Shown piece by piece: positions 7,767-42,266 of a DNA stretch of 42,266 nucleotides (the first letter of the stretch is position 1; the number at the start of each line of letters is the position of its first letter). The notes below the pieces were generated by a model, which had not been told where the DNA came from, did no database searches, and was given only the letters and a program-made list of their open reading frames with translations. The DNA comes from Candidatus Heimdallarchaeota archaeon (GTDB lineage: Archaea > Asgardarchaeota > Heimdallarchaeia > Heimdallarchaeales > Heimdallarchaeaceae). The stretch lies in NCBI GenBank assembly GCA_030608385.1, contig JAUWEG010000010.1:1-42266 (forward strand). The letters are read 5' to 3'. Both the position numbers and the translations under genes were made by a program.

Positions 7767-9341
7767 TTACAACATCATTCTGATTGTATCATTTCCTTGC
7801 AGTGTTAGATAGTCAGATAATTTATTCTCCAATCTACTAAATCCATATTGTCTGCATTTCTTTATAGCCATGTATTGTAGGGCAGGTCCCAATGGATCTC
7901 CATTTTTGTAAGCTCCTACCTGAATAAAAGCTTCCATGAAAACGCGCATTTCAAGAACTTCTATCTTATATAGCTGATTTTTATACTTCCTCAGCAATGG
8001 ATAAATCTCTGCAAACCTGTTTATTTTAAAGTATTCTTGAGCTGCAAGTAAATCAGCAAAAGCTTTCTCTATAAAAGTCATCCTATCTTCTAATGGCCGC
8101 CTATTTAATGTAAATATACAATTTATAATTTGTTTTTCATCACCATTAGTTGTTTTTTCATTTAAGAAATTGATTATGTGTTCAACTCTTTTTGTACTAG
8201 GATTACTTAAATTCTTTATTTCAGCCAACTGCTCTTTGTTGAGGTTAGCATTCAAAAGGAACTCACTAAAAAATATTGCATTGGTATGACATTTGTCTAT
8301 ATTTCTGAAAATAGTTTTTACCAAATCTTTTTCATTTTCACTTCGAAAATCTTTTAATCCTGATTTAATGTAGAATTTCGTCAAATTGAGATTATGTCTT
8401 GTTTGTTCTTTGTTTTTATTATCAAGTTTATTAATTATAGAATCTTCTTTCAGAATCATTTCTAATAATTGTATATTTCTTCTCGATTCAGCCAAGTTTC
8501 CCTTCAAAGCCTGTATTATTGACAAATGTGACAATGTTGGTAAATAAAAAACATAATTCTCACTTTTTGGACTGCTTGCTTCGAAAATCTTCTTTGACAA
8601 AAGAAATTGCTTTTCAGCTTTCGATAGAAGAAAATCCAAGTCTAGAGTAGCCCCAAGAAAATAGCGCATTACAGCTTGTAAATCCTTTGGCAGCTTTAAG
8701 GATTCAAGTTTTCTGTATATGTTCTTAGTTAATTGTTGCACTCCTACTCTCTTTTGTGTTTGAAAATATATAGTACTTAGGTAACCTAGCGCACGAATTA
8801 AACCCTTATAATACCCTTTCCTCTCAAAATAATCTATACATTCCTCAAAAATACACGCGCAGTTTGGATCACTTTCTCTTTTCCATTTATCAAATGCATA
8901 ACTGTAACGAGTTATGTTATAAGTATAACAGCTACAGTTGCTACATGCTTCTAAGAGATCCATAGATTTTTGTAATGCTTCTAAGCTTTTTTCCTCATTG
9001 CCTTTAAATCTTTCAACGCCCCATTCTATAGAAAAGGCTAAAATCAATCCTTCCTGATAATCCAAATTACTTGCAATTTGTTTCATCAAAAAAAGGTGTT
9101 CTTCAATCTGTTTCATGTTTTTTTTAGAGCCAAAAAGCTGTTTTATTTTTAACTCCAAGATATTGACAGTTGATTTTTTATCTTCAATATCAAAACTTTT
9201 TTGCAGAGCTATGTTGATAGTTTCTAGTACTTCTTCAGATTTTTCATTTGCGACAAATACCCTTAAAGAATTCAGTATTTCTTGTAATTCAATCACTGTT
9301 CTCAATGAGATAATGGTGCTTCTAATACTTGTTAGATTCAT
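7767..9341 (-). CDS. TPR-like helical repeat protein 1, neighbour of peptide genes
   Basis: A 524-residue soluble, almost entirely helical protein with no signal peptide or membrane segment. Paired amphipathic helices with TPR-like spacing run through it, for example GYYKGLIRALGYLSTIYFQTQ and YLPTLSHLSIIQALKGNLAES. Residues 133-168 hold a cysteine group (CSNCSC, then CACIFEEC), which could bind metal. It is paralogous to the protein at 38221-39903: both have ANEKSxEV near residue 31-40, a L-L-N-x-x-x-N-x-x-Q-L-[AS]-E segment past the middle, and similar C-terminal helices. No HTH or catalytic motif is seen. Three tiny peptide genes lie directly upstream on the same strand, suggesting it is a peptide-binding receptor or a client. 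Function is unknown; TPR assignment is by pattern. Confidence 0.75.
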   Translation of the reverse strand: MNLTSIRSTIISLRTVIELQEILNSLRVFVANEKSEEVLETINIALQKSFDIEDKKSTVNILELKIKQLFGSKKNMKQIEEHLFLMKQIASNLDYQEGLILAFSIEWGVERFKGNEEKSLEALQKSMDLLEACSNCSCYTYNITRYSYAFDKWKRESDPNCACIFEECIDYFERKGYYKGLIRALGYLSTIYFQTQKRVGVQQLTKNIYRKLESLKLPKDLQAVMRYFLGATLDLDFLLSKAEKQFLLSKKIFEASSPKSENYVFYLPTLSHLSIIQALKGNLAESRRNIQLLEMILKEDSIINKLDNKNKEQTRHNLNLTKFYIKSGLKDFRSENEKDLVKTIFRNIDKCHTNAIFFSEFLLNANLNKEQLAEIKNLSNPSTKRVEHIINFLNEKTTNGDEKQIINCIFTLNRRPLEDRMTFIEKAFADLLAAQEYFKINRFAEIYPLLRKYKNQLYKIEVLEMRVFMEAFIQVGAYKNGDPLGPALQYMAIKKCRQYGFSRLENKLSDYLTLQGNDTIRMML

Positions 9342-9549: not shown

Positions 9550-9590
9550 GTTTCAACTCTTGGAAAGGTTACTCTAGTAGTAGAATGAAA

Positions 9591-9600
9591 CTATTAAAAC
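9591..9600 (-). promoter_or_regulatory. Possible promoter of peptide gene A
   Basis: On the minus strand GTTTTAATAG resembles a TATA box about 45 bases upstream of the ATG at 9549, allowing a leader of some 20 bases. It lies just downstream of a T-rich tract ending the previous peptide transcript, so gene A could be its own unit. Confidence 0.35.
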
Positions 9601-9606
9601 ACCCAA

Positions 9607-9640
9607 AAGAAAAACGTGACAAAAAAAGAGAAAGAAAGAG
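9607..9640 (-). terminator. T-rich terminator after peptide gene B
   Basis: On the minus strand the sequence after the second stop of copy B reads CTCTTTCTTTCTCTTTTTTT, followed by further T runs. This is a pyrimidine-rich archaeal-type terminator and would end a bicistronic C-B transcript. Confidence 0.45.
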
Positions 9641-9661: not shown

Positions 9662-9718
9662 TCAAACAGGTGGGTCTAAATCCTGGTCTCCTTCATCAGG
9701 ATCGTAGTTTTGTATCAT
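9662..9718 (-). CDS. Acidic micro-peptide B (18 residues), shortened by an in-frame TGA
   Basis: An 18-codon gene encoding MIQNYDPDEGDQDLDPPV. It keeps the family YDP, the acidic middle and PP. It then stops at TGA (9662-9664), and the next codons in frame are TGG CCA TAA, giving Trp-Pro and a second stop. Copies A, C and D have W, W and Y where this copy has TGA, and P after the following aromatic, so the ancestral end was probably PPVWWP and one TGG became TGA. Either the peptide is truncated or the TGA is sometimes read through. It begins 20 bases after copy C with GGTGATTGAAT before the ATG, so C and B are probably translated from one transcript. Confidence 0.65.
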   Translation of the reverse strand: MIQNYDPDEGDQDLDPPV

Positions 9719-9813: not shown

Positions 9814-9834
9814 ATCTCTGCTCTTTGTAAAGCA

Positions 9835-9845
9835 CTATAATATTA
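9835..9845 (-). promoter_or_regulatory. TATA-like promoter of peptide genes C-B
   Basis: On the minus strand TAATATTATAG lies with its centre about 27 bases upstream of the ATG of copy C (9813), the expected TATA distance for a leaderless archaeal transcript. Confidence 0.45.
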
Positions 9846-10024
9846 CAAGAAAGAACATACATACAAGAAGAAAAGATTGACAAGTAAGAAACGAAGAATG
9901 GTTTGTTTTTTACATTCAACACTTACAGATATTTCTGATTTTAGCTTTGTTTCTAAAGCTGTATTTTAAACCAAACAAAACCCCGTATAGGAAAAAGAGC
10001 GTTTTTCAACAAGAGTTCACTTTC

Positions 10025-13629: not shown

Positions 13630-13787
13630 TTTTCCACACTATCAAGTAAAAGTTTTTTCTATTTAAATCTATTACCAGAAGTTTGGTAAAAAATGTTATT
13701 TCTAAGAATCAGATTTGAAATTTCAAGAAAAAAGTGGTGTTGATATACTAAATACTAGAATAACAATTGAAAAAGAAGCTGATAAAG

Positions 13788-15230
13788 ATGACTAGTTGTA
13801 ATAGTGTACAACAAGGAAAACATGCTGAAAAAAAGGTCATCAGTGAATATACCATACAAGGATTCAAAATTATTATTCATGAGGAAGATGGAATAGTCTA
13901 CTACACAGCAGAACCATTGTTTGACTTTCAAAAGGATCCATTACTATTTGCTGAACTGTCTGCTTTAGTCAATAAGAATAAGGATAGACTTGGAAAAGAG
14001 ATTCTAAGATTCGATGATTTAGTTGATACAATAAAATCAGTTTGTATGTGGAAAGTTTTAGAAATAGATGGGCTTGAAATAAATCCTGAAGTGTTTACAG
14101 AACTTTTTATTTACAGGTTAATCAAATTAGACAGATTAATTCCTGCTCTATTAGATCATTATGTAAATGAAATTTATATGGACCAAAAAGGATCTGCTTT
14201 GTACTTAGATCATCAGACCTTTGGAAGGTGTAACACTAATGTAATCCTTGATGAGGAGGAGTTAGAAGCACTAATAACTAGAATCAAGCTTGAACACCCA
14301 ATTACTGTTTCAGCTAAGAAACCATCATTGAAAATTGAATTTCAAACACAAGAATTTCATTCACGCATTTCAATGGACTTTCCTCCTCTTTCACCAAATG
14401 GACCTACCTTTAATATTAGAAAACTAAAAAGAAAACCACTCGAATTATTAGACTTAATTAATCTCAATACTTTACCTACATCCTTAGGATCTTACTTAGT
14501 GGAAGCTGTAATCAACAGACAAAATATCACTATTATAGGAGAACCTAATGCAGGAAAAACAACTTTGGCAAATGCTATTGATTTATACACACCTAAGCAC
14601 TGGAGAAAAATAGCAATTGAGGATGCAATAGAATCAACCAATCAAGCATCAATGGGTTTTAAGCATCTATCTATCCAAGTAGATTCTTTTGAATCAAACA
14701 AAAGTAACCATACCAAAACAGCTGAAATCTTAAAATTGTTACATAGATCACCAGATTGGATATATTTAGGAGAAATTCAATCTAGGGAACACACTCAAGC
14801 AATGTTCGAAGCTCTTAATGCTGGTTTGAAAGGAATACAAACAGCCCATTCAGATTCAGTTGAAAAAATTCTTAGAAGGTGGGAAAATCTTCACAAAATT
14901 GCTCGTTCAGATTTTCTTTCTTTAGATATTATCATAATAATGAGGAGGGAAATAACAAAAAGCACTTTCATTCGAAAGATAGTTGATGTCTATGAGGTAA
15001 ATCCTAACAACGTTAGCAAAGAAAATGATTATGGTTTCTTAACTAAAGTATATGATGAAGATATGAATGAAAATCAAATGTTTCAAATAATAAAAAACAA
15101 ATCAAGATTAAGTAGTAAAATTAATTCAATTCTAGAGAGAAATCATTTTTTCAGAAGCATGCAAGCAGAGAAATGGGGATTAAAGCTTGAAAATAATAAC
15201 TCAAATAAAAGTGAGAAAGATTATTTATGA
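13788..15230 (+). CDS. Type IV pilus/archaellum-type secretion ATPase (GspE/VirB11 superfamily)
   Basis: A 480-residue secretion ATPase of the FlaI/TadA class that powers assembly of type IV pilus-like filaments from the cytoplasmic face of the membrane. Walker A is IIGEPNAGKTTLANA. The Asp box region follows as KIAIEDAIEST, Walker B as SPDWIYLGEIQSREH, and the His box as GIQTAHSDS. The N-terminal domain (about residues 1-200) binds the platform protein in relatives. ATG 13788 is chosen over a TTG at 13767; GATATACTAAATA (13742-13754) is a TATA-like box upstream. The stop overlaps the next gene by four bases (ATGA), so the three pilus genes form one operon. Confidence 0.9.
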   Translation: MTSCNSVQQGKHAEKKVISEYTIQGFKIIIHEEDGIVYYTAEPLFDFQKDPLLFAELSALVNKNKDRLGKEILRFDDLVDTIKSVCMWKVLEIDGLEINPEVFTELFIYRLIKLDRLIPALLDHYVNEIYMDQKGSALYLDHQTFGRCNTNVILDEEELEALITRIKLEHPITVSAKKPSLKIEFQTQEFHSRISMDFPPLSPNGPTFNIRKLKRKPLELLDLINLNTLPTSLGSYLVEAVINRQNITIIGEPNAGKTTLANAIDLYTPKHWRKIAIEDAIESTNQASMGFKHLSIQVDSFESNKSNHTKTAEILKLLHRSPDWIYLGEIQSREHTQAMFEALNAGLKGIQTAHSDSVEKILRRWENLHKIARSDFLSLDIIIIMRREITKSTFIRKIVDVYEVNPNNVSKENDYGFLTKVYDEDMNENQMFQIIKNKSRLSSKINSILERNHFFRSMQAEKWGLKLENNNSNKSEKDYL

Positions 15231-16030
15231 AAATAATAAATTATGGTAAATCCAGTTCCAAAGTTACTCAGTTCAGCATTTTTCCGAAGGCAATATTATA
15301 TAGATTGGCTCTTGGAAAAGTTGAGAAACATTCCAAATTCTTTATTTCTGAAAAGGATTATAGGAACATAAGGTTAATTGGAAATTCATCTTTATTGTTT
15401 TTTGTAATTTCGTTTGTGATTTTTCACTATGTTACCCTAATTAATGTTCCAATTGCTTTACTTATCAGCTTAATAGCGAGTATATCATTTCTTTTTGTGT
15501 TAAGTGATTATATTCGCACCAAAATACTAAACCGTCATCAAAAATTTGAGGAAACAGCTTTTCTAATAATTAATTCGTTATCAATCAATATGGTTGCAAC
15601 TCAATCCTTTCCACACTCTGTTGAGCTTCTGCTGACTAAAGGAATCAAAGACAAATATTATACTAAATATTTTCAAGATATGCTTTACAGTTTAAATCTA
15701 GGGGAAAATGAAGATGAGATAATCAATAATGGCGGAAAAATTTTTTTGAATAAACAATATGAAACATCATTCCAAAATATAAAGAACGAAAATGCTTTCA
15801 TTGAATCTGATCCAGAATTTATATTGTATATAAGAAAAGGAATCAAATTGATAGAAGATAACATAGTAATTTTTATCGCGGTTTCTTGTCTATTACCACT
15901 AGTACTAAGTATGGTTCTATCATTCCTGTTACCATCAAACTCTCCAACAATATTCATTTTCCCTCTTCTTTATGCAGTCTTTGGAACCCTGATTCTTCGT
16001 TTCATGAACAATAAGAATATTGGTGATTAA
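15227..16030 (+). CDS. Pilus assembly platform protein, N-terminal half (TadC/FlaJ-like)
   Basis: A 267-residue membrane protein. Two transmembrane helices lie at about 55-70 and 75-95 (LLFFVISFVIFHYVTLI and IALLISLIASISFLFVL). A cytoplasmic domain of about 110 residues follows, with the pattern LIINSLSINMVATQSFPHSVELLL typical of T2SSF/TadC domains, then two helices near the C-terminus (IVIFIAVSCLLPLVLSMVLSFLL and IFIFPLLYAVFGTLIL). Immediately next to the ATPase and a second similar gene, it looks like one half of the two-domain platform protein that is usually a single FlaJ/TadC polypeptide. Confidence 0.8.
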   Translation: MKIINYGKSSSKVTQFSIFPKAILYRLALGKVEKHSKFFISEKDYRNIRLIGNSSLLFFVISFVIFHYVTLINVPIALLISLIASISFLFVLSDYIRTKILNRHQKFEETAFLIINSLSINMVATQSFPHSVELLLTKGIKDKYYTKYFQDMLYSLNLGENEDEIINNGGKIFLNKQYETSFQNIKNENAFIESDPEFILYIRKGIKLIEDNIVIFIAVSCLLPLVLSMVLSFLLPSNSPTIFIFPLLYAVFGTLILRFMNNKNIGD

Positions 16031-16031
16031 T

Positions 16032-16649
16032 ATGATAAGATTAAATTGCACAGATTTTAACTTTCTTAACAATATTGCTTTGAAACTTGAAAATGGTGAA
16101 AATCTAGAAAGATCTTTCTTTCTATCAGAAAATGTACCAAAGGAAATTCTTACTAGATTACAATTAGGAGAAAATTTGCTAGATACAATTTCTTCTATTG
16201 ATTTCAGTTATCCTGCTTTAAGAAATCTTTTTTCCTCTGTTGACTACGCAGATGAAACGGAAATTCTTGAACGAGTAAAAACTACATCTAAATTAATTAG
16301 AATGCGCGAAGAAGTTCTTAAAGAAAAAGAATCATCCTTAAAAATTCATAGAAGAAGATTAAAAATTATACGTTATGTAACTATGTTTACTATTGCAATG
16401 ATTGCGGGTTTTTCGCCTATATTCTCAAATCTATATAGTTTTATTAGCACAGGGGAATTTACTAGTTCTTTTTCTATTTGGTCAATATTATCTGTATCAT
16501 TTCTTATCATAAATTTACTAAACAATTACTATCTACTTAAAATGGGTAATGAAGAAAGAATAAAGCTCAGGCTTGTTCCGGTGATTTTATTGCATTCAGC
16601 AATAGTAGTCGGTGTCAGATTTTTCATATTAAATCTTATCCCTATTTAG
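16032..16649 (+). CDS. Pilus assembly platform protein, C-terminal half (TadC/FlaJ-like)
   Basis: A 205-residue membrane protein starting at ATG 16032, one base after the previous stop, with GGTGATT upstream. It has a T2SSF-like cytoplasmic segment (NNIALKLENGENLERSFFLS, then LRNLFSSVDYADETEILERVKTTSKLIRMREEVLKEKE) and three hydrophobic helices (about residues 115-135, 150-170 and 185-203). With the preceding gene it makes up the two-domain platform. The four residues before Met (reading from TTG 16020) are unlikely to be used. Confidence 0.78.
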   Translation: MIRLNCTDFNFLNNIALKLENGENLERSFFLSENVPKEILTRLQLGENLLDTISSIDFSYPALRNLFSSVDYADETEILERVKTTSKLIRMREEVLKEKESSLKIHRRRLKIIRYVTMFTIAMIAGFSPIFSNLYSFISTGEFTSSFSIWSILSVSFLIINLLNNYYLLKMGNEERIKLRLVPVILLHSAIVVGVRFFILNLIPI

Positions 16650-29298: not shown

Positions 29299-30231
29299 AT
29301 GTCTATGATAAACCACGAAAGAATATCTTCGGGGATAGAAGGTCTTGATGTTCTAATGAATGGCGGAATAATCAAGAATTCTATAAATTCCATAGTAGGT
29401 AGTAGTGGAACAGGAAAAACTACTTTTGCCTTAGCTTACTTATATCAAGGACTTTTAGAAGGAGATCATACCCTTTATTTGTCCTTTGAAGAAACCCCCT
29501 CAAAATTAATTGGGGAAGCCGAATCTTTAGGAATTAACATTCGCGAAATGACAAATGATGCTGAAGACCTAATTCATTTAGTTGAAAGTGAGAAGATTGT
29601 TGAGTTTATGACAAATATACTCCCTGCCCTAGCTCAAAAGTTGAAACATCGAAATGTTAAACACACAAGAATTATTGTGGACCCACTCACACCTATATTG
29701 TGGGAATTTCCTTCAGAAAAAGAGCAAAGAAAAGTTCTAACTAAGATCTATCACCATTTGAGCTCTCTAGGTACAGTATTGCAAACTGTTGAAGAACCAA
29801 ATGCTTTTGGTCAAACAGATATTGGTGCCAAAGAAACAAGAGTACCAATTTACTTATCTGATAGTGTCATTCACATACAAAATCTAGGTTTGGGGGGAAA
29901 ATACAACAGAACTTGTAAGGTTATTAAATCTCGAAAAACACCCCATCACGAAGGAATCTATCCTCTTAATTTTGTTAATGGACCAGGCTTAGTTATAGAT
30001 ACTAGTTCAATTCAGAATGTTGCATTTAATCCAGTTGTTAACGATATAAGATACCAAGAGCTAATGAAAAGAGTGAAAGAACTCTCTAAAGATAAGGATC
30101 CAAAGAAAAGAGTGATTGCTCAAATTGCAAAGAACCTTCTTGGTGAAAGAGAGAATAGGGATAGTTCTCAGAATATGGAACTTGTTAAAGTATTAACAGA
30201 TAATCAGATATTACAAGAGGTAAGAAAATGA
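29299..30231 (+). CDS. KaiC-like RecA-superfamily ATPase
   Basis: A 310-residue single-domain KaiC/GvpD-type ATPase. It begins with the family pattern RISSGIEGLDVLMNGGIIKNSINSIVGSSGTGKTT, with Walker A at residues 34-42, then LYLSFEETPSKLIGEAESLGI with the catalytic Glu pair (EE) of KaiC proteins, and Walker B HTRIIVDPLT. Such proteins work as ATP-dependent switches in archaeal signalling. It is the first gene of a five-gene run ending in a small GTPase. The stop overlaps the next start (ATGA). GTTTATTTAGG about 25 bases upstream of the ATG suits a leaderless transcript. Confidence 0.88.
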   Translation: MSMINHERISSGIEGLDVLMNGGIIKNSINSIVGSSGTGKTTFALAYLYQGLLEGDHTLYLSFEETPSKLIGEAESLGINIREMTNDAEDLIHLVESEKIVEFMTNILPALAQKLKHRNVKHTRIIVDPLTPILWEFPSEKEQRKVLTKIYHHLSSLGTVLQTVEEPNAFGQTDIGAKETRVPIYLSDSVIHIQNLGLGGKYNRTCKVIKSRKTPHHEGIYPLNFVNGPGLVIDTSSIQNVAFNPVVNDIRYQELMKRVKELSKDKDPKKRVIAQIAKNLLGERENRDSSQNMELVKVLTDNQILQEVRK

Positions 30232-30587
30232 ATTTTAGCCAAGGAATTGGTTCTGAATTAATGGATTTAAATCACTTAGATGAAGTAGAAGCCGCAATAC
30301 TCTTCCGAATTGATGGGGATGTTGTTGATTCATCATTTAAGGAAGAATATTCTCACAATTTATTAAGAACAATTCAGTGGTGCAAAGCAAATGTTGACAA
30401 AGTTTCTTTAGAAATGAAATCAAACAATCTCAATAAAGTAACTTACGAATTAAGTGAATTCTGTGTAATCTTTTATGTTGTAAATAGCATACTGATCCTA
30501 ACAACTATTGCAAGCAAAAATGCTAATCTTAGTTTGTTATCTATAGAATCCAAGAGAAAAGCTCTCTTAATCTCTAATTATTTGTGA
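30228..30587 (+). CDS. Roadblock/LC7-like small protein
   Basis: A 119-residue protein with the predicted roadblock/LC7 pattern: an opening helix, then AAILFRIDGDVVDSSF as the first two strands, a long helix (NLLRTIQWCKANVDKV), and two hydrophobic strands (FCVIFYVVN, SILILTTIASK) before a last helix. Roadblock proteins bind and regulate small GTPases, and such a GTPase is encoded 1.4 kb downstream in the same operon. It overlaps the KaiC-like gene by four bases and the FIST gene frame closely, so translation is coupled. Confidence 0.65.
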   Translation: MNFSQGIGSELMDLNHLDEVEAAILFRIDGDVVDSSFKEEYSHNLLRTIQWCKANVDKVSLEMKSNNLNKVTYELSEFCVIFYVVNSILILTTIASKNANLSLLSIESKRKALLISNYL

Positions 30588-30598
30588 GGGGTTTCTTT

Positions 30599-31942
30599 AT
30601 GCAGATAGCAACAAGAACAACTAGCCACAGATCCATCAATATAACTACAAAACATATCATCAAAGATGTTATTGGTGATATTAACGGCACACCTGACTTT
30701 CTACTTATTGCGTATACTCCAAATTATCGTGAAAAAAGACAATATGAACAAGCTATATCAAAAATTTGTGAAGAAAGCGGAACACAGAATGTAATCGGAG
30801 GAACATTTCCTGCTGTCGCTACATCGAATGACATACCAACTACTCAAGGTTGTTCTGCAATGGCTTTCAAATCATCAGAATTGAAAATCCATTCTTCAGT
30901 TTCCTATTCAAATATTAGAATAAACCCTGATAAAGGAGTAGATAAACTAATTCAACTCTTTAAAGATGATCAGAATAGGTTCAAGACAGGATTTTTCCTT
31001 ACACCTGGTCCGTTCTTTCCACCTGATGCTTTCAAAGATATGAAAATATTGGATAGTATCTTCGCTCATAAATTTAGAGGAATGTTCAATATGATTGGAA
31101 AACTCATTAATCGAAATATGGGAAAGAATGGTTATGGTGTAACTTCTTTCGCATACAAAATGCTGATGAAATTACTGGAAAATAATGTAGAAAATGCCCT
31201 AGGAGGCGCCACTATTGATTTAGATATGCTCTCTTGTTATCAATTTCAAGGAGAAAATGTTTTTCAAAATGCAATGGTTGGAACTGTCTTTTCTTCTGAT
31301 ACCTTGAACTTTGAACATAATTGGACGTTTGATAAATCACAGAAGACTAAAAGCTTTGAGCTATCAAAGGGAATCAAAAGCAGCAGTTATGTTCATGAGA
31401 TAAATGAAAAACCCGCACATGAAGAATTTCTTGAACTGTTAGGTATGTCCAAAGAGCTTTATGAAGAAGCTTTCAAAAACATGGCTTATGCTTCATTGTT
31501 GTATCTTTCTACATTGAAATCAAAGAATCAAGGGAATCTACCATTTGTATCTGTATGTCATCCATCTTTGAAAGGAATAATTTCAACAATTCCAGAGGAA
31601 ATTTTAGATGAGAGTGAAAAAATAGCGGAGTTTTTCACACAATCTGGTTTAGGAGTGCAAAAATCTGCATATGAATGTGCTAATACAGCGGCACAGAAAA
31701 TTGATCATCCCATTTTTGGCCTTTTTATTAACTGTAGCAATAGATTGCTCATTGCTGGTGATAAAATTGAAGAAGAAAATAAGATGGTCAAAGAAGCAAT
31801 AGGAACAGATGTACCTTTCATGACACTATATTCAGGGGGGGAATTTTCCATAATTAAAAACAAGCCAATCTACTCTTCGGTTTCTGTACATGGGTTGGTT
31901 GCAGGATACAACAATTCACCACAAAAAAATGTGGTGCTTTAA
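30599..31942 (+). CDS. FIST-domain sensory protein
   Basis: A 447-residue soluble protein from ATG 30599 (MQIATRTTSHRSIN); GAGGGG lies about 9 bases upstream, which favours it over the GTG at 30584. It has the FIST N domain (PDFLLIAYTPNYREKRQYEQAISKICEESGTQNVIGGTFPAVATSNDI, and ALGGATIDLDMLSCYQF) and a FIST C domain (HEEFLELLGM, then ESEKIAEFFTQSGLGVQKSAYECANTAAQ, and HPIFGLFINCSNRLLIAG, ending VPFMTLYSGGEFSIIKNKPIYSSVSVHGLVAGY). FIST domains are thought to sense small ligands such as amino acids. Its place between a roadblock-like protein and a small GTPase suggests it feeds a GTPase switch. Confidence 0.88.
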   Translation: MQIATRTTSHRSINITTKHIIKDVIGDINGTPDFLLIAYTPNYREKRQYEQAISKICEESGTQNVIGGTFPAVATSNDIPTTQGCSAMAFKSSELKIHSSVSYSNIRINPDKGVDKLIQLFKDDQNRFKTGFFLTPGPFFPPDAFKDMKILDSIFAHKFRGMFNMIGKLINRNMGKNGYGVTSFAYKMLMKLLENNVENALGGATIDLDMLSCYQFQGENVFQNAMVGTVFSSDTLNFEHNWTFDKSQKTKSFELSKGIKSSSYVHEINEKPAHEEFLELLGMSKELYEEAFKNMAYASLLYLSTLKSKNQGNLPFVSVCHPSLKGIISTIPEEILDESEKIAEFFTQSGLGVQKSAYECANTAAQKIDHPIFGLFINCSNRLLIAGDKIEEENKMVKEAIGTDVPFMTLYSGGEFSIIKNKPIYSSVSVHGLVAGYNNSPQKNVVL

Positions 31943-31956
31943 ATATTTTTTTGGAT

Positions 31957-32562
31957 ATGATTATCATGAATACAACACTCCCTCAAAACTCAAAACATAA
32001 CAATATATTGAAAATTGCTGTATTGGGATTAGGTTCAGTGGGAAAAACTACAATATCTAAAAGCTATTCAGGAGAACTTGATGACCCAAACCAAATTTTA
32101 ATGACAAAAGGTGTAGATATTACAGTGAAAAGAATAGTTTATCAAGGTCGTACAGTAACTCTACAGATTTGGGATTTTGCTGGACAAAAACAATTTCGAT
32201 TCATGATTGATGTTTTCCTACGTGGTGTTAAAGGTGTAATGTATGTTTATGATATTACTGATATAGAAACTCTAGCCTATTTGAATGAATTTGTTGATCT
32301 AACCCGCAATTACTTAGCTAACCACTTCTACCCTAAAATTCCAGAAGTTTTAGTTGGAAACAAACTTGATTTAGAAGATTCGGAAGTATCTATAGAAGAT
32401 ATCCATGATTTTATGAAGAATTACAACATCAAGAAGCATTTTCTTGTGAGTGGCCTTTTATCAGGCAATGTTTCAGAACCATTTGAGTATATTGTCGACC
32501 AGATAATAAACAAGGAACAAAGTCTAGCTGATGAGCTAGTATCAAAATATCAGAGCTTCTAG
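31957..32562 (+). CDS. Ras/Rab-like small GTPase
   Basis: A 201-residue small GTPase of the eukaryote-like Ras superfamily. G1 is GLGSVGKTT, G3 WDFAGQKQF (the Gln corresponds to Ras Gln61), G4 NKLD, and G5 probably VSGLLSG. The switch I region (TKGVDITVKRI) has Thr-x-Gly as in Rab/Arf-like proteins. No C-terminal prenylation cysteine is present; the protein ends LVSKYQSF, so it is probably cytosolic. ATG 31957 is chosen; ATG 31966 and TTG 31951 are alternatives. It follows the FIST gene and may be controlled by the roadblock-like partner. Confidence 0.92.
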   Translation: MIIMNTTLPQNSKHNNILKIAVLGLGSVGKTTISKSYSGELDDPNQILMTKGVDITVKRIVYQGRTVTLQIWDFAGQKQFRFMIDVFLRGVKGVMYVYDITDIETLAYLNEFVDLTRNYLANHFYPKIPEVLVGNKLDLEDSEVSIEDIHDFMKNYNIKKHFLVSGLLSGNVSEPFEYIVDQIINKEQSLADELVSKYQSF

Positions 32563-37977: not shown

Positions 37978-37991
37978 TTGTGATGTCACAA
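37978..37991. promoter_or_regulatory. 14-base palindrome between the HerA-like and peptide D genes
   Basis: TTGTGATGTCACAA is a perfect inverted repeat (TTGTGA and TCACAA around TG) of operator size. It lies about 107 bases upstream of the HerA-like ATG on one side and some 30 bases upstream of the TATA-like box of peptide D on the other, in a shared divergent promoter region. Confidence 0.5.
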
Positions 37992-38033: not shown

Positions 38034-38083
38034 GAGAGTTAATCTGCATTCAGCAGAAAAGCTACTATCCGATGAGTATGAGT

Positions 38084-38152
38084 ATGATGAAGAACCAAAC
38101 TTATGATCCAACAGACGACGATGATGTAATTCCTCCGATGTATTATCCTTAA
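38084..38152 (+). CDS. Acidic micro-peptide D (22 residues), TPR-associated family
   Basis: A tiny gene whose product begins MMKNQTYDP, has an acidic TDDDDV and ends IPPMYYP. With the start at 38084 it aligns residue for residue at the front with copies A and C: MM, four residues, [Y/F]DP. Upstream in-frame ATGs at 38078 and 38072 would add MSMS. The end lacks the final Asn of A and C, but keeps PP, an aromatic pair and P. It lies beside the second TPR-like gene (38221-39903), convergent with it, as A-C lie beside the first. No signal peptide. A T-rich stretch follows. Confidence 0.7.
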   Translation: MMKNQTYDPTDDDDVIPPMYYP

Positions 38153-38165
38153 GAGGGGTTAATTC

Positions 38166-38190
38166 TATTTTTTTTATTTTTCTTAATTTA
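38166..38190 (+). terminator. T-rich terminator after peptide gene D
   Basis: TCTATTTTTTTTATTTTTCTT follows the peptide stop by about 15 bases and fits an archaeal T-tract terminator. It also lies in the gap to the convergent TPR-like gene. Confidence 0.5.
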
Positions 38191-38220
38191 ATTTAGTCTT
38201 ATTTCTTTTTTCAATTCAGT

Positions 38221-39903
38221 CTAAATTGAATCTAGAACCATTCTCTTCGATTCTTCATTGAAAATATCCATAAAAGCCGTATGTCGGAATTTATCGGTGA
38301 AGCTACTTATTGTCTTTTTTGAGGCTACAAGTTTTTGGTAGAAGTTTATTTCTTCTGCAATTTTATTGAAAGTTTTATTTCTACACATTTCCTCTAATTT
38401 ACTTAGCTCTACTGCGATTGTTGCATCAGAAGGATCATTAATATATTTTGAAAGTAGACTGAAAATGTCTTTCCAAATAGATAAAATGGGTTCTTTACTT
38501 CTGGCAGTTTCTTTCGTGAAGTTCCTTAAAATTTCGTCAAACTTTTGATAATTGCCTTTTGAAAGGTAAATTTTTGCCAACAATATATCAAGATAATGTG
38601 GATCATATACATAATCGCGTAAGGAAGAAATCTTGTCTTCTATAACTATTTCACTAGTGGTGTATGAATCATGAGTTATAAGAAGTTGATGAAGAACTAG
38701 ATAAACATCATCCTTAGATTCGTGTATTTCATCATCTAAGAGCTCACTTAATTGCTTATTATTTGTAGTTTCATTAAGGAGGAGTTTTTGAGAGATTCTT
38801 TTTTTGGATAATGTTCTTTTTGTATAATTATAGAGTTTTTTCAAAGAATTATCTTGTATATTATCAATATCTAAATCCAATTGGACAAAGATGAAGAGCA
38901 AGGTAAAATATGAACCAAAATATACTTTTTTTCTGTTTTTTTGAATATAATTAAACTTAACGTAATCATCTTCCATAAAATTAACAAGTTCTACAAGAAG
39001 TTCATAGGATTCTTGAAATTTACCTTGGAAAGCATAATATCTACTCAAAAGCCTCAAAGTATATGTATGTTCATACATCAGCTCTTTCTGTAAACCCTCA
39101 TATTTTATTTTCTCATATGAGTTCTTAAGATAGGATATGGTATGTTCTATTTTGTGGTCTATTGCAGAAATTGTTCCAGCACACCAATACAACAAAATGG
39201 CTTGAGAACTAGTTATTTTATCCTGTATTTTTTCTTTTTGAAAAACCCATTTTAGTAGATCTTCCGTTTTCTTTTTTTGATTCAGAAAGATATAATAATT
39301 AAGTAATAAGGTAAGAGATTTAATCATTCCTGAAGAGTTCTTACTTTCAAGATAATAGTAATCAAAGCACTTTTTCATGTTTCTAATTGCGGATTTGTAA
39401 TCTTTGTCTGATAATGATAAATAAAATGTATGGGCATAAAGTAAAGCATAATATGATTCTGGATAATCTTTTTTGAAAGGTTTCAGAATTTGTTCTGCTT
39501 CAGTCAGTTGATCCCTAGCTTTTTGGTTATTCCTTTTTAACTGATTAAACAGAGCCTTTGCAGTTAAAACATTTGCTTGATGTTCAACATTTCTAGTTGA
39601 AAGTGCAATTTTTTCCATTTCCTTTATTTGAGATTTAACTTCTTCTTCATTCTCTGTAAAATCATAATAATAGGTTTGTAAATAGTATAACCAGTAAATT
39701 GTGAATAAATAATTAGTATCAAACTTTTCTTTGAGTTCATCAATAATGGTTCTTAAAAGGTTAGTCACTTCTGATGATTTCTCATTTGCGCAAACTATCT
39801 TCAAATCTGAAAAATAATTTTCATCAGAAACAATATCATGCAATCTATTTTGGTACTCAAAAACGTTCTTCCTTATTTTTTGAAAATCTTCAATATCTAG
39901 CAT
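38221..39903 (-). CDS. TPR-like helical repeat protein 2, neighbour of peptide gene D
   Basis: A 560-residue soluble protein made almost wholly of paired helices with TPR-like spacing, for example EHQANVLTAKALFNQLKRNN, TLRLLSRYYAFQGKFQESYELL and LLAKIYLSKGNYQKFDEIL. No signal peptide, membrane segment or HTH. It is a paralogue of the protein at 7767-9341: near residue 40 it has ANEKSSEV, and further on LLLNETTNNKQLSE, in the same order. Unlike the first it lacks the Cys cluster. The ATG is preceded by GGGGATAAAGC, and a TATA-like GTAATATATAAC lies near 39935-39945. It is convergent with peptide D. A peptide-receptor role is inferred from context only. Confidence 0.75.
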   Translation of the reverse strand: MLDIEDFQKIRKNVFEYQNRLHDIVSDENYFSDLKIVCANEKSSEVTNLLRTIIDELKEKFDTNYLFTIYWLYYLQTYYYDFTENEEEVKSQIKEMEKIALSTRNVEHQANVLTAKALFNQLKRNNQKARDQLTEAEQILKPFKKDYPESYYALLYAHTFYLSLSDKDYKSAIRNMKKCFDYYYLESKNSSGMIKSLTLLLNYYIFLNQKKKTEDLLKWVFQKEKIQDKITSSQAILLYWCAGTISAIDHKIEHTISYLKNSYEKIKYEGLQKELMYEHTYTLRLLSRYYAFQGKFQESYELLVELVNFMEDDYVKFNYIQKNRKKVYFGSYFTLLFIFVQLDLDIDNIQDNSLKKLYNYTKRTLSKKRISQKLLLNETTNNKQLSELLDDEIHESKDDVYLVLHQLLITHDSYTTSEIVIEDKISSLRDYVYDPHYLDILLAKIYLSKGNYQKFDEILRNFTKETARSKEPILSIWKDIFSLLSKYINDPSDATIAVELSKLEEMCRNKTFNKIAEEINFYQKLVASKKTISSFTDKFRHTAFMDIFNEESKRMVLDSI

Positions 39904-40708: not shown

Positions 40709-42181
<1,473 letters not shown>

Positions 42182-42189
<8 letters not shown>

Positions 42190-42213
42190 CGTTCGGAGGT
42201 CTCCAAGACCTCC
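42182..42213 (+). other. Alternative hairpins at the 16S 3' end
   Basis: ACCTCC (42182-42187, the anti-Shine-Dalgarno) can pair with GGAGGT (42195-42200). The same GGAGGTCT (42195-42202) instead pairs perfectly with AGACCTCC (42206-42213) around a CCA loop. The two structures exclude each other and lie at the processing site of the precursor. Confidence 0.5.
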
Positions 42214-42266
42214 AAACCCTTTATTCTCTATTTCTGTAGTATCATTCTCTCGGGGTTCTTGTATTC

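Follow-up and report, generated by a model that had tools for sequence, protein, structure and literature searches.

Members of one heimdallarchaeal genus encode short peptides beside a family of TPR proteins, and these cognate peptide–receptor pairs likely form a multi-channel, RRNPP-like peptide-sensing system, although export, signalling and output are undemonstrated. The pairing itself, the selected translation of the peptides, the co-occurrence of both families, a shared peptide promoter, the TPR fold and a code of covarying residues are all shown here by computation.

Two peptide–receptor loci in the window

Receptors like P0002 are termed type A and those like P0001 type D; related TPR genes that form a third, more divergent group are termed type C. 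Types A and D are each represented in the window, i.e. the whole 42,266-nucleotide stretch of DNA that was analysed (Table 1). P0001 is a distant but real paralogue of P0002 (20% identity, E = 4e-6), and receptors of the family are about 510–570 aa long (560 and 524 for these two). The genes for peptide D and P0001 are convergent with 68 nt between them; if translation instead began at an in-frame ATG at 38072, the peptide would gain MSMS at its N-terminus (MSMSMMKNQ...). At the A locus, a degenerate peptide copy lies between the two intact peptide genes upstream of P0002. It ends ..DPPV, followed by TGA TGG CCA TAA, and the corresponding copy in a 97%-identical relative is intact (MYEQKYDPDEGDDGILPPAWLP).

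Table 1 Coordinates and strands of the peptide, receptor and associated features in the window.
Feature	Position	Strand	Remarks
A-type TPR receptor P0002	7767-9341	-	524 aa
Conserved C-terminal module, P0002 residues 421-520	7782-8081	-	GAYKNGDPLGPALQYMAIKKCRQYGFSRLENKL; proposed output part
Codons of P0002 residues 63-141	8919-9155	-	Specificity residues
Closest upstream peptide of P0002	9481-9549	-	MMYKLKYDPGNDDDLPPGWFPN
Conserved peptide promoter	9550-9635	-	TGTCA + T-rich run, TATA-like TTTTAATA, GTAACC
Degenerate peptide copy	9662-9718	-	MIQNYDPDEGDQDLDPPV; TGA at expected site of W-x-P end
Second tandem peptide upstream of P0002	9739-9813	-	MMYELKFDPDEGDGDILPPAWLPN
Promoter region of second peptide	9814-9899	-	TGTCA element present; promoter model E = 6.7e-5
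TGTCA element, then CAAAATTTTC	37984-37988	+	5' of peptide D; element common to other peptide genes
Peptide D gene	38084-38152	+	Product MMKNQTYDPTDDDDVIPPMYYP
D-type TPR receptor P0001	38221-39903	-	560-aa ORF
16S rRNA gene	40709-42188	+	Upstream of P0001, divergent from P0001

Further pairs are found on other contigs of the same genome. Contig C23 carries three more A-type receptors and C203 a broken one, each with a peptide directly upstream. The end of the window (42126–42266) is an exact overlap with the first 141 bases of C23 (L010 1–141) and C23 therefore continues the window, making the D locus, the 16S rRNA gene and the cluster of three receptors contiguous. Many receptor and peptide loci are adjacent to the 16S rRNA gene (L112, L121, L124, L138, L145, L154, L158, L171), which is uncommon for genes that change so quickly. 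Elsewhere in the window, reading alone identified a gene run resembling a KaiC-type ATPase, roadblock-like and FIST-like proteins and a small Ras-like GTPase (29299–32562, +), and a TadA/type IV pilus-like ATPase accompanied by a pair of membrane proteins (13767–16649, +).

Peptides and receptors are paired and co-occur across the genus

Pairing was surveyed in 71 regions (711,866 bases), in which the peptide motif matched 135 times against 5.4 times in shuffled sequence. At least one same-strand upstream peptide was present at all A-type ORFs longer than 500 codons (63/63), often as two or three peptides in tandem. D-type orthologues were found in 15/21 genomes of the genus, essentially as single copies, and a convergent peptide 29–71 nt beyond the receptor stop was found in 14/14 full-length orthologues (15 loci when one split gene is counted). 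The initial annotation had proposed that peptide D is paired with a paralogous TPR-like protein, that the pair occurs in two orientations (upstream on the same strand, and convergent) and that chance was an unlikely cause. All three claims held: the pairing generalises across the genus, each orientation is fixed by receptor type, and the motif far exceeds its shuffled background.

The arrangement also bears on the possibility that the peptides are cis-acting leaders whose translation controls the receptor gene, as most of them lie 5' of the receptor on the same strand. Against this, D-type peptides are downstream, convergent and on the opposite strand, several receptors seem to be served by a separate TATA-like promoter located beyond the peptide, and peptide letters covary with residues of the receptor protein (see below). 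The leader-peptide reading was rejected on the conserved convergent D-type layout and is all but excluded.

P0002 homologues occurred in 20/21 genomes of the genus and in one sister-genus genome, at 1–12 copies per genome, and were absent from all other order and class genomes tested. Genome-wide scans for peptides combined DNA patterns with a model of the peptide promoter. The strict DNA pattern was found in 19/21 genomes of the genus and in one sister genus, with no occurrence in the remaining Asgard genomes (228 searched in total) or in any viral contig, and none for the reversed control. Two genomes of the genus, G006 and G012, have neither peptides nor A- or D-type receptors; G006 is counted among the P0002-homologue genomes by a type C gene alone. 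Peptides and A/D-type receptors are thus present or absent together, with few exceptions.

These exceptions are the two observations that would have told against a functional pair, namely TPR homologues without a peptide and peptides without a TPR gene. The former comprise the eight type C genes of the 71-region survey, none of which has a peptide (0/8), and a lone D-like TPR gene in a sister genus (L217 2303–3997, −), which lies on a complete single contig and has no recognisable peptide. It is possible that this peptide-less D-like gene represents the ancestral state. The latter comprise a few orphan peptide genes that have lost their receptor, some at sites where a relative keeps it. In type C (L122, L127, L128, L131, L136, L137, L141, L151), the positions that confer specificity in type A are nearly constant. 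Near-universal pairing, shared absence and the covariation code together lend strong support to the proposed functional pair, although binding has not been shown.

No viral relative of the family was present in IMG/VR contigs, on which ground a phage origin was rejected; P0002 had no match in PLSDB plasmids, and a fold search of BFVD with the D-type protein returned generic repeat proteins and nothing else.

The peptides are genes under selection with a common promoter

The 125 different peptide sequences are 17–27 aa long. Their codons are under selection (pN/pS 0.34 across 102 distinct sequences) and they share a conserved core (D 98/98, P 93/98, G 90/98, D 96/98, PP, W 95/98 and P 98/98), within which the residue between the W and the last P (hereafter x) is hypervariable (F, S, W, T, R, H, L, C, Q or M). 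The peptides are thus shown to be real genes whose translation is under selection.

A TGTCA, TGGCA or TGACA element with a T-rich run was present in 116/131 peptide upstream regions, 70–79 nt before the ATG in 104 of the 116, and occurred only at background level upstream of receptors. Across 21 genomes, the strong end of the promoter model consisted almost exclusively of peptides, including new intact and decaying copies; the promoter at 9550–9635 (−) in the window matched it with E = 6e-18. This common element suggests that the peptide genes have a transcription factor of their own, the factor itself being unidentified. A similar promoter precedes a conserved protein of ~120 aa (MVRLWGDTPETEELAKKNLEKQLEKILL...) in five genomes (L207, L208, L211, L212, L213). 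One of these five genomes is the peptide-less G006, and the protein has no Pfam match.

No hydrophobic stretch was detected in 133 peptides (the most hydrophobic 8-residue segment in any of them averages 1.25), and their median net charge is −4. Being hydrophilic and strongly acidic, they are unlikely to carry a classical secretion signal.

The receptors are predicted TPR superhelices with a conserved C-terminal module

AlphaFold2 (AF2) models of both receptor types are all-helical superhelices, with pTM 0.81 for a type A member, a TPR superhelix, and pTM 0.82 (mean pLDDT 85) for P0001. In Foldseek searches with P0001, NprR occupied ranks 2–4 among the closest solved structures, together with several Rap structures. 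Matches for type A were more generic, with NprR and Rap further down, and LGN complexes were among the matches of both types. The RRNPP analogy drawn in the initial annotation hence held at the level of fold, most clearly for the D-type protein, while signalling is undemonstrated.

Pfam matches in type A members were weak and TPR-like alone (TPR_12 in 12/53, TPR_MalT in 10/53), the family had no NCBIfam match, and RRNPP chains in the PDB gave no sequence match to the receptors. Scans of the receptor family recognised neither a DNA-binding or HTH domain nor a toxin domain, although toxicity itself is untested, and no linked target gene was found. Among 63 A-type paralogues, conservation at residues 421–520 was 0.71–0.88 compared to about 0.33–0.62 elsewhere. 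A conserved C-terminal module with a variable remainder suggests one shared output surface and variable reading of ligands.

A residue code links A-type receptors to their peptides

Mutual information between the columns of A-type receptors and of their nearest peptides peaked, for the hypervariable residue, at receptor positions 63, 67, 70, 104, 105 and 108. The correspondence can be read directly: W-F-P-N goes with EKFLSIGY, W-R-P with ESELNIYY, W-H-P with GLE(L/F)S, W-Q-P with GPYWSYYY, W-S-P-G with DRYLQLHK and W-W-P with S(T/S)(H/Q)L. The P0002 residues E63, K67, F70, L101, S104, I105, G108 and Y141 place it in the W-F-P-N class. The combination E63–K67 accompanied a tail N in 17/17 cases, with one exception among the rest (p = 1.8e-14). 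A second receptor set (183, 265) tracks the middle of the peptide, residue 183 for example being M with Ala, H with Gly and Q with Leu/Phe before the peptide Trp, and N265 going with a Thr that precedes PP.

From a few receptor residues, x was predicted with a cross-validated accuracy of 86.5% (permutation null: mean 14.7%, max 24.6%); columns were picked in the training data alone and clusters at <60% identity were kept apart. On a tree built from receptor residues 150–524, the peptide letter changed 33 times and residues 63 and 67 changed 34 times, and independent pairs switched in the same direction in 7/7 and 10/10 cases. Two receptors seemed to break the code. L156 2938 has Q-class residues and WRP as its nearest peptide, with WQP as the second, and L124 2557, whose residues are of the R class, has a frame-extended ORF lying nearer that reads ..PPLWRP; at both loci, then, a peptide matching the predicted class is present. 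One to six distinct reading classes were present per genome, and tandem second peptides often carried a letter not expected for the adjacent receptor. D-type covariation was tabulated, but a test would need more than the 14 available sequences, of which four are nearly identical.

The code is also difficult to reconcile with a RiPP-like system, in which the peptides would be precursors of a modified natural product and the TPR protein a binding or maturation partner. Short precursors with a conserved core, a variable end and tandem copies are in keeping with that reading. However, the ORF lists that were read showed no sign of a modifying enzyme next to the pairs, and it is a repeat scaffold, rather than an enzyme, with which the variable letters covary; we regard this reading as very unlikely.

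Covariation probably reflects contact rather than linkage

Covariation could arise without contact if blocks comprising the peptide gene and the receptor N-terminus were exchanged by recombination. In favour of this, the peptide gene lies just 5' of the receptor N-terminus, where the signal for the C-terminal peptide letters peaks, and the frequent switching on the tree suggests recombination. Three results speak against it. First, eight concave residues predicted x in 54/61 cases, compared to 33/61 and 20/61 for their neighbours in the same helices. Second, receptor residues 1–150 predicted the C-terminal letters of the peptide, residues 151–300 the middle and residues 301–523 the N-terminal letters, so that the N-terminal letters track the far C-terminal third of the receptor; this last third did not predict the C-terminal letter (7/61). 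The order of positions in peptide and receptor was antiparallel (rho −0.93, 0/200 shuffles). Third, the groove-lining A helices held 17 of the 20 most strongly covarying columns (Z ≥ 3.5), against 2 for the B helices (p = 5e-4), despite B-helix columns being the more variable. Here, A helices were assigned on the model by alternation and the TPR consensus, without coordinate distances. Recombination linkage was judged insufficient on these three tests and is very unlikely as the whole explanation. Nested gene conversion could mimic the antiparallel order, but not the A-helix enrichment.

Since this enrichment goes beyond gene conversion, physical binding is inferred for type A. We consider such binding very likely, though the inference rests on covariation and there are no binding data. 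For type D, binding is inferred from homology and synteny only. The suggestion in the initial annotation that the free C-terminus of the peptide sits in the TPR groove fits the covariation of W-x-P(-tail) with the first TPR helices. Structure prediction did not add to this. In an AF2 model of a natural read-through that joins the peptide to the receptor by way of the intergenic sequence, with stops read as Gly, the receptor folded and the peptide remained unplaced (block pLDDT 31, 45, 39), and this model therefore gives no evidence of docking.

Proposed mechanism and the inhibitor alternative

In the proposed mechanism, a leaderless, acidic peptide of about 17–27 residues would be made from its own TGTCA-element promoter and would lie antiparallel along the concave groove of the TPR superhelix of the adjacent receptor. 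Going from the first ~three repeats through the middle ones to the last, the receptor would read in turn the W-x-P(-N) end, the middle and the N-terminal part of the peptide. Binding may then alter the engagement of the conserved C-terminal module with a common partner, which is unidentified. Paralogues would retain the output module while their reading residues change in step with the peptide, giving distinct channels. That covariation reflects contact, that binding is regulatory and that the D-type works alike are inferences.

One alternative remains possible, namely that the peptide acts inside the cell that makes it, as an inhibitor or antitoxin-like partner that holds the TPR protein off, with paralogue diversification reflecting insulation or conflict rather than communication. 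The absence of a secretion signal from these strongly acidic peptides, the separate, regulated promoter of the peptide alone, and the high turnover with decaying copies are all consistent with it. Conversely, peptides persist after receptor loss and tandem second peptides often have letters unexpected for the adjacent receptor, both of which better fit diffusible or cross-addressed ligands. No toxin domain, as in the effector of a type II toxin–antitoxin pair, was detected, Pfam matches being TPR-like alone. Orphan peptides, mismatched-letter tandems and multiple reading classes favour communication or cross-addressing, whereas leaderlessness favours an intracellular role.

A bolder form of the sensing model is that the family represents the first archaeal peptide-pheromone system, evolved independently of Bacillota, in which leaderless acidic peptides would address neighbouring cells or strains through dozens of largely separate peptide–TPR channels with a residue code. 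We lean slightly against this stronger form.

Comparison with known systems

Known RRNPP systems come from Bacillota and from mobile elements of these bacteria (PMC12700828) and are recognised by a small propeptide (10–100 aa), its secretion, a receptor of 250–500 aa, TPRs and gene adjacency (PMC10075063). The Heimdall pairs meet the criteria of peptide size, TPR receptor and adjacent genes, but not those of Sec secretion, for lack of a hydrophobic stretch, and receptor length. Exceptions to the secretion criterion are known, through PptAB or as leaderless peptides (PMC10075063). Paralogue expansion, co-diversification and tandem peptide duplicates are shared with the RRNPP/RRNPPA systems (Rap-Phr, NprR-NprX, PlcR-PapR, Rgg-SHP, PrgX, AimR-AimP), and in fold the D-type protein resembles NprR and Rap. 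Unlike them, the Heimdall pairs are archaeal and without detectable sequence kinship, no HTH was found, the receptors have a conserved C-terminal module and the peptides a common TGTCA promoter, and the apparent read-out of the peptide is unusually long, extending along most of the superhelix. As secretion and receptor length are unmet and descent is unresolved, we describe the pairs as RRNPP-like in working and do not file them as a member.

The further comparison with the arbitrium receptor AimR, also made in the initial annotation, did not hold, as neither phage carriage nor DNA-binding features were met: there is no IMG/VR relative of the family and no HTH was seen in the family scans. In contrast to arbitrium on temperate phage, the loci lie among ribosomal-protein, tRNA and 16S rRNA genes. 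A short peptide without a Sec signal is shared with ComR-ComS/XIP and the leaderless pheromones of Lactobacillales, such peptides being mentioned in PMC12700828. ComS has an aromatic C-terminal end, as do the Heimdall peptides. However, ComR has an HTH, and ComS/XIP is hydrophobic whilst the Heimdall peptides are strongly acidic. The Foldseek matches of both receptor types to LGN complexes recall LGN/Pins-Inscuteable and other eukaryotic TPR grooves. LGN/Pins is known to bind long peptides in its TPR groove; those ligands are segments of large proteins, whereas the Heimdall peptides are encoded by separate mini-genes.

No archaeal or Asgard family of peptide–receptor signalling encoded by adjacent genes was described in the open-licence literature searched. 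The pairs provide about 63 natural ligand–receptor combinations whose specificity code is legible from sequence, and binding, rewiring and crosstalk are therefore open to study with recombinant receptors and synthetic peptides even though no culture of the organism is at hand. Eukaryotes are thought to descend from the Asgard archaea, and this peptide–receptor family is relevant to the question of a single or repeated origin of TPR-peptide sensing.
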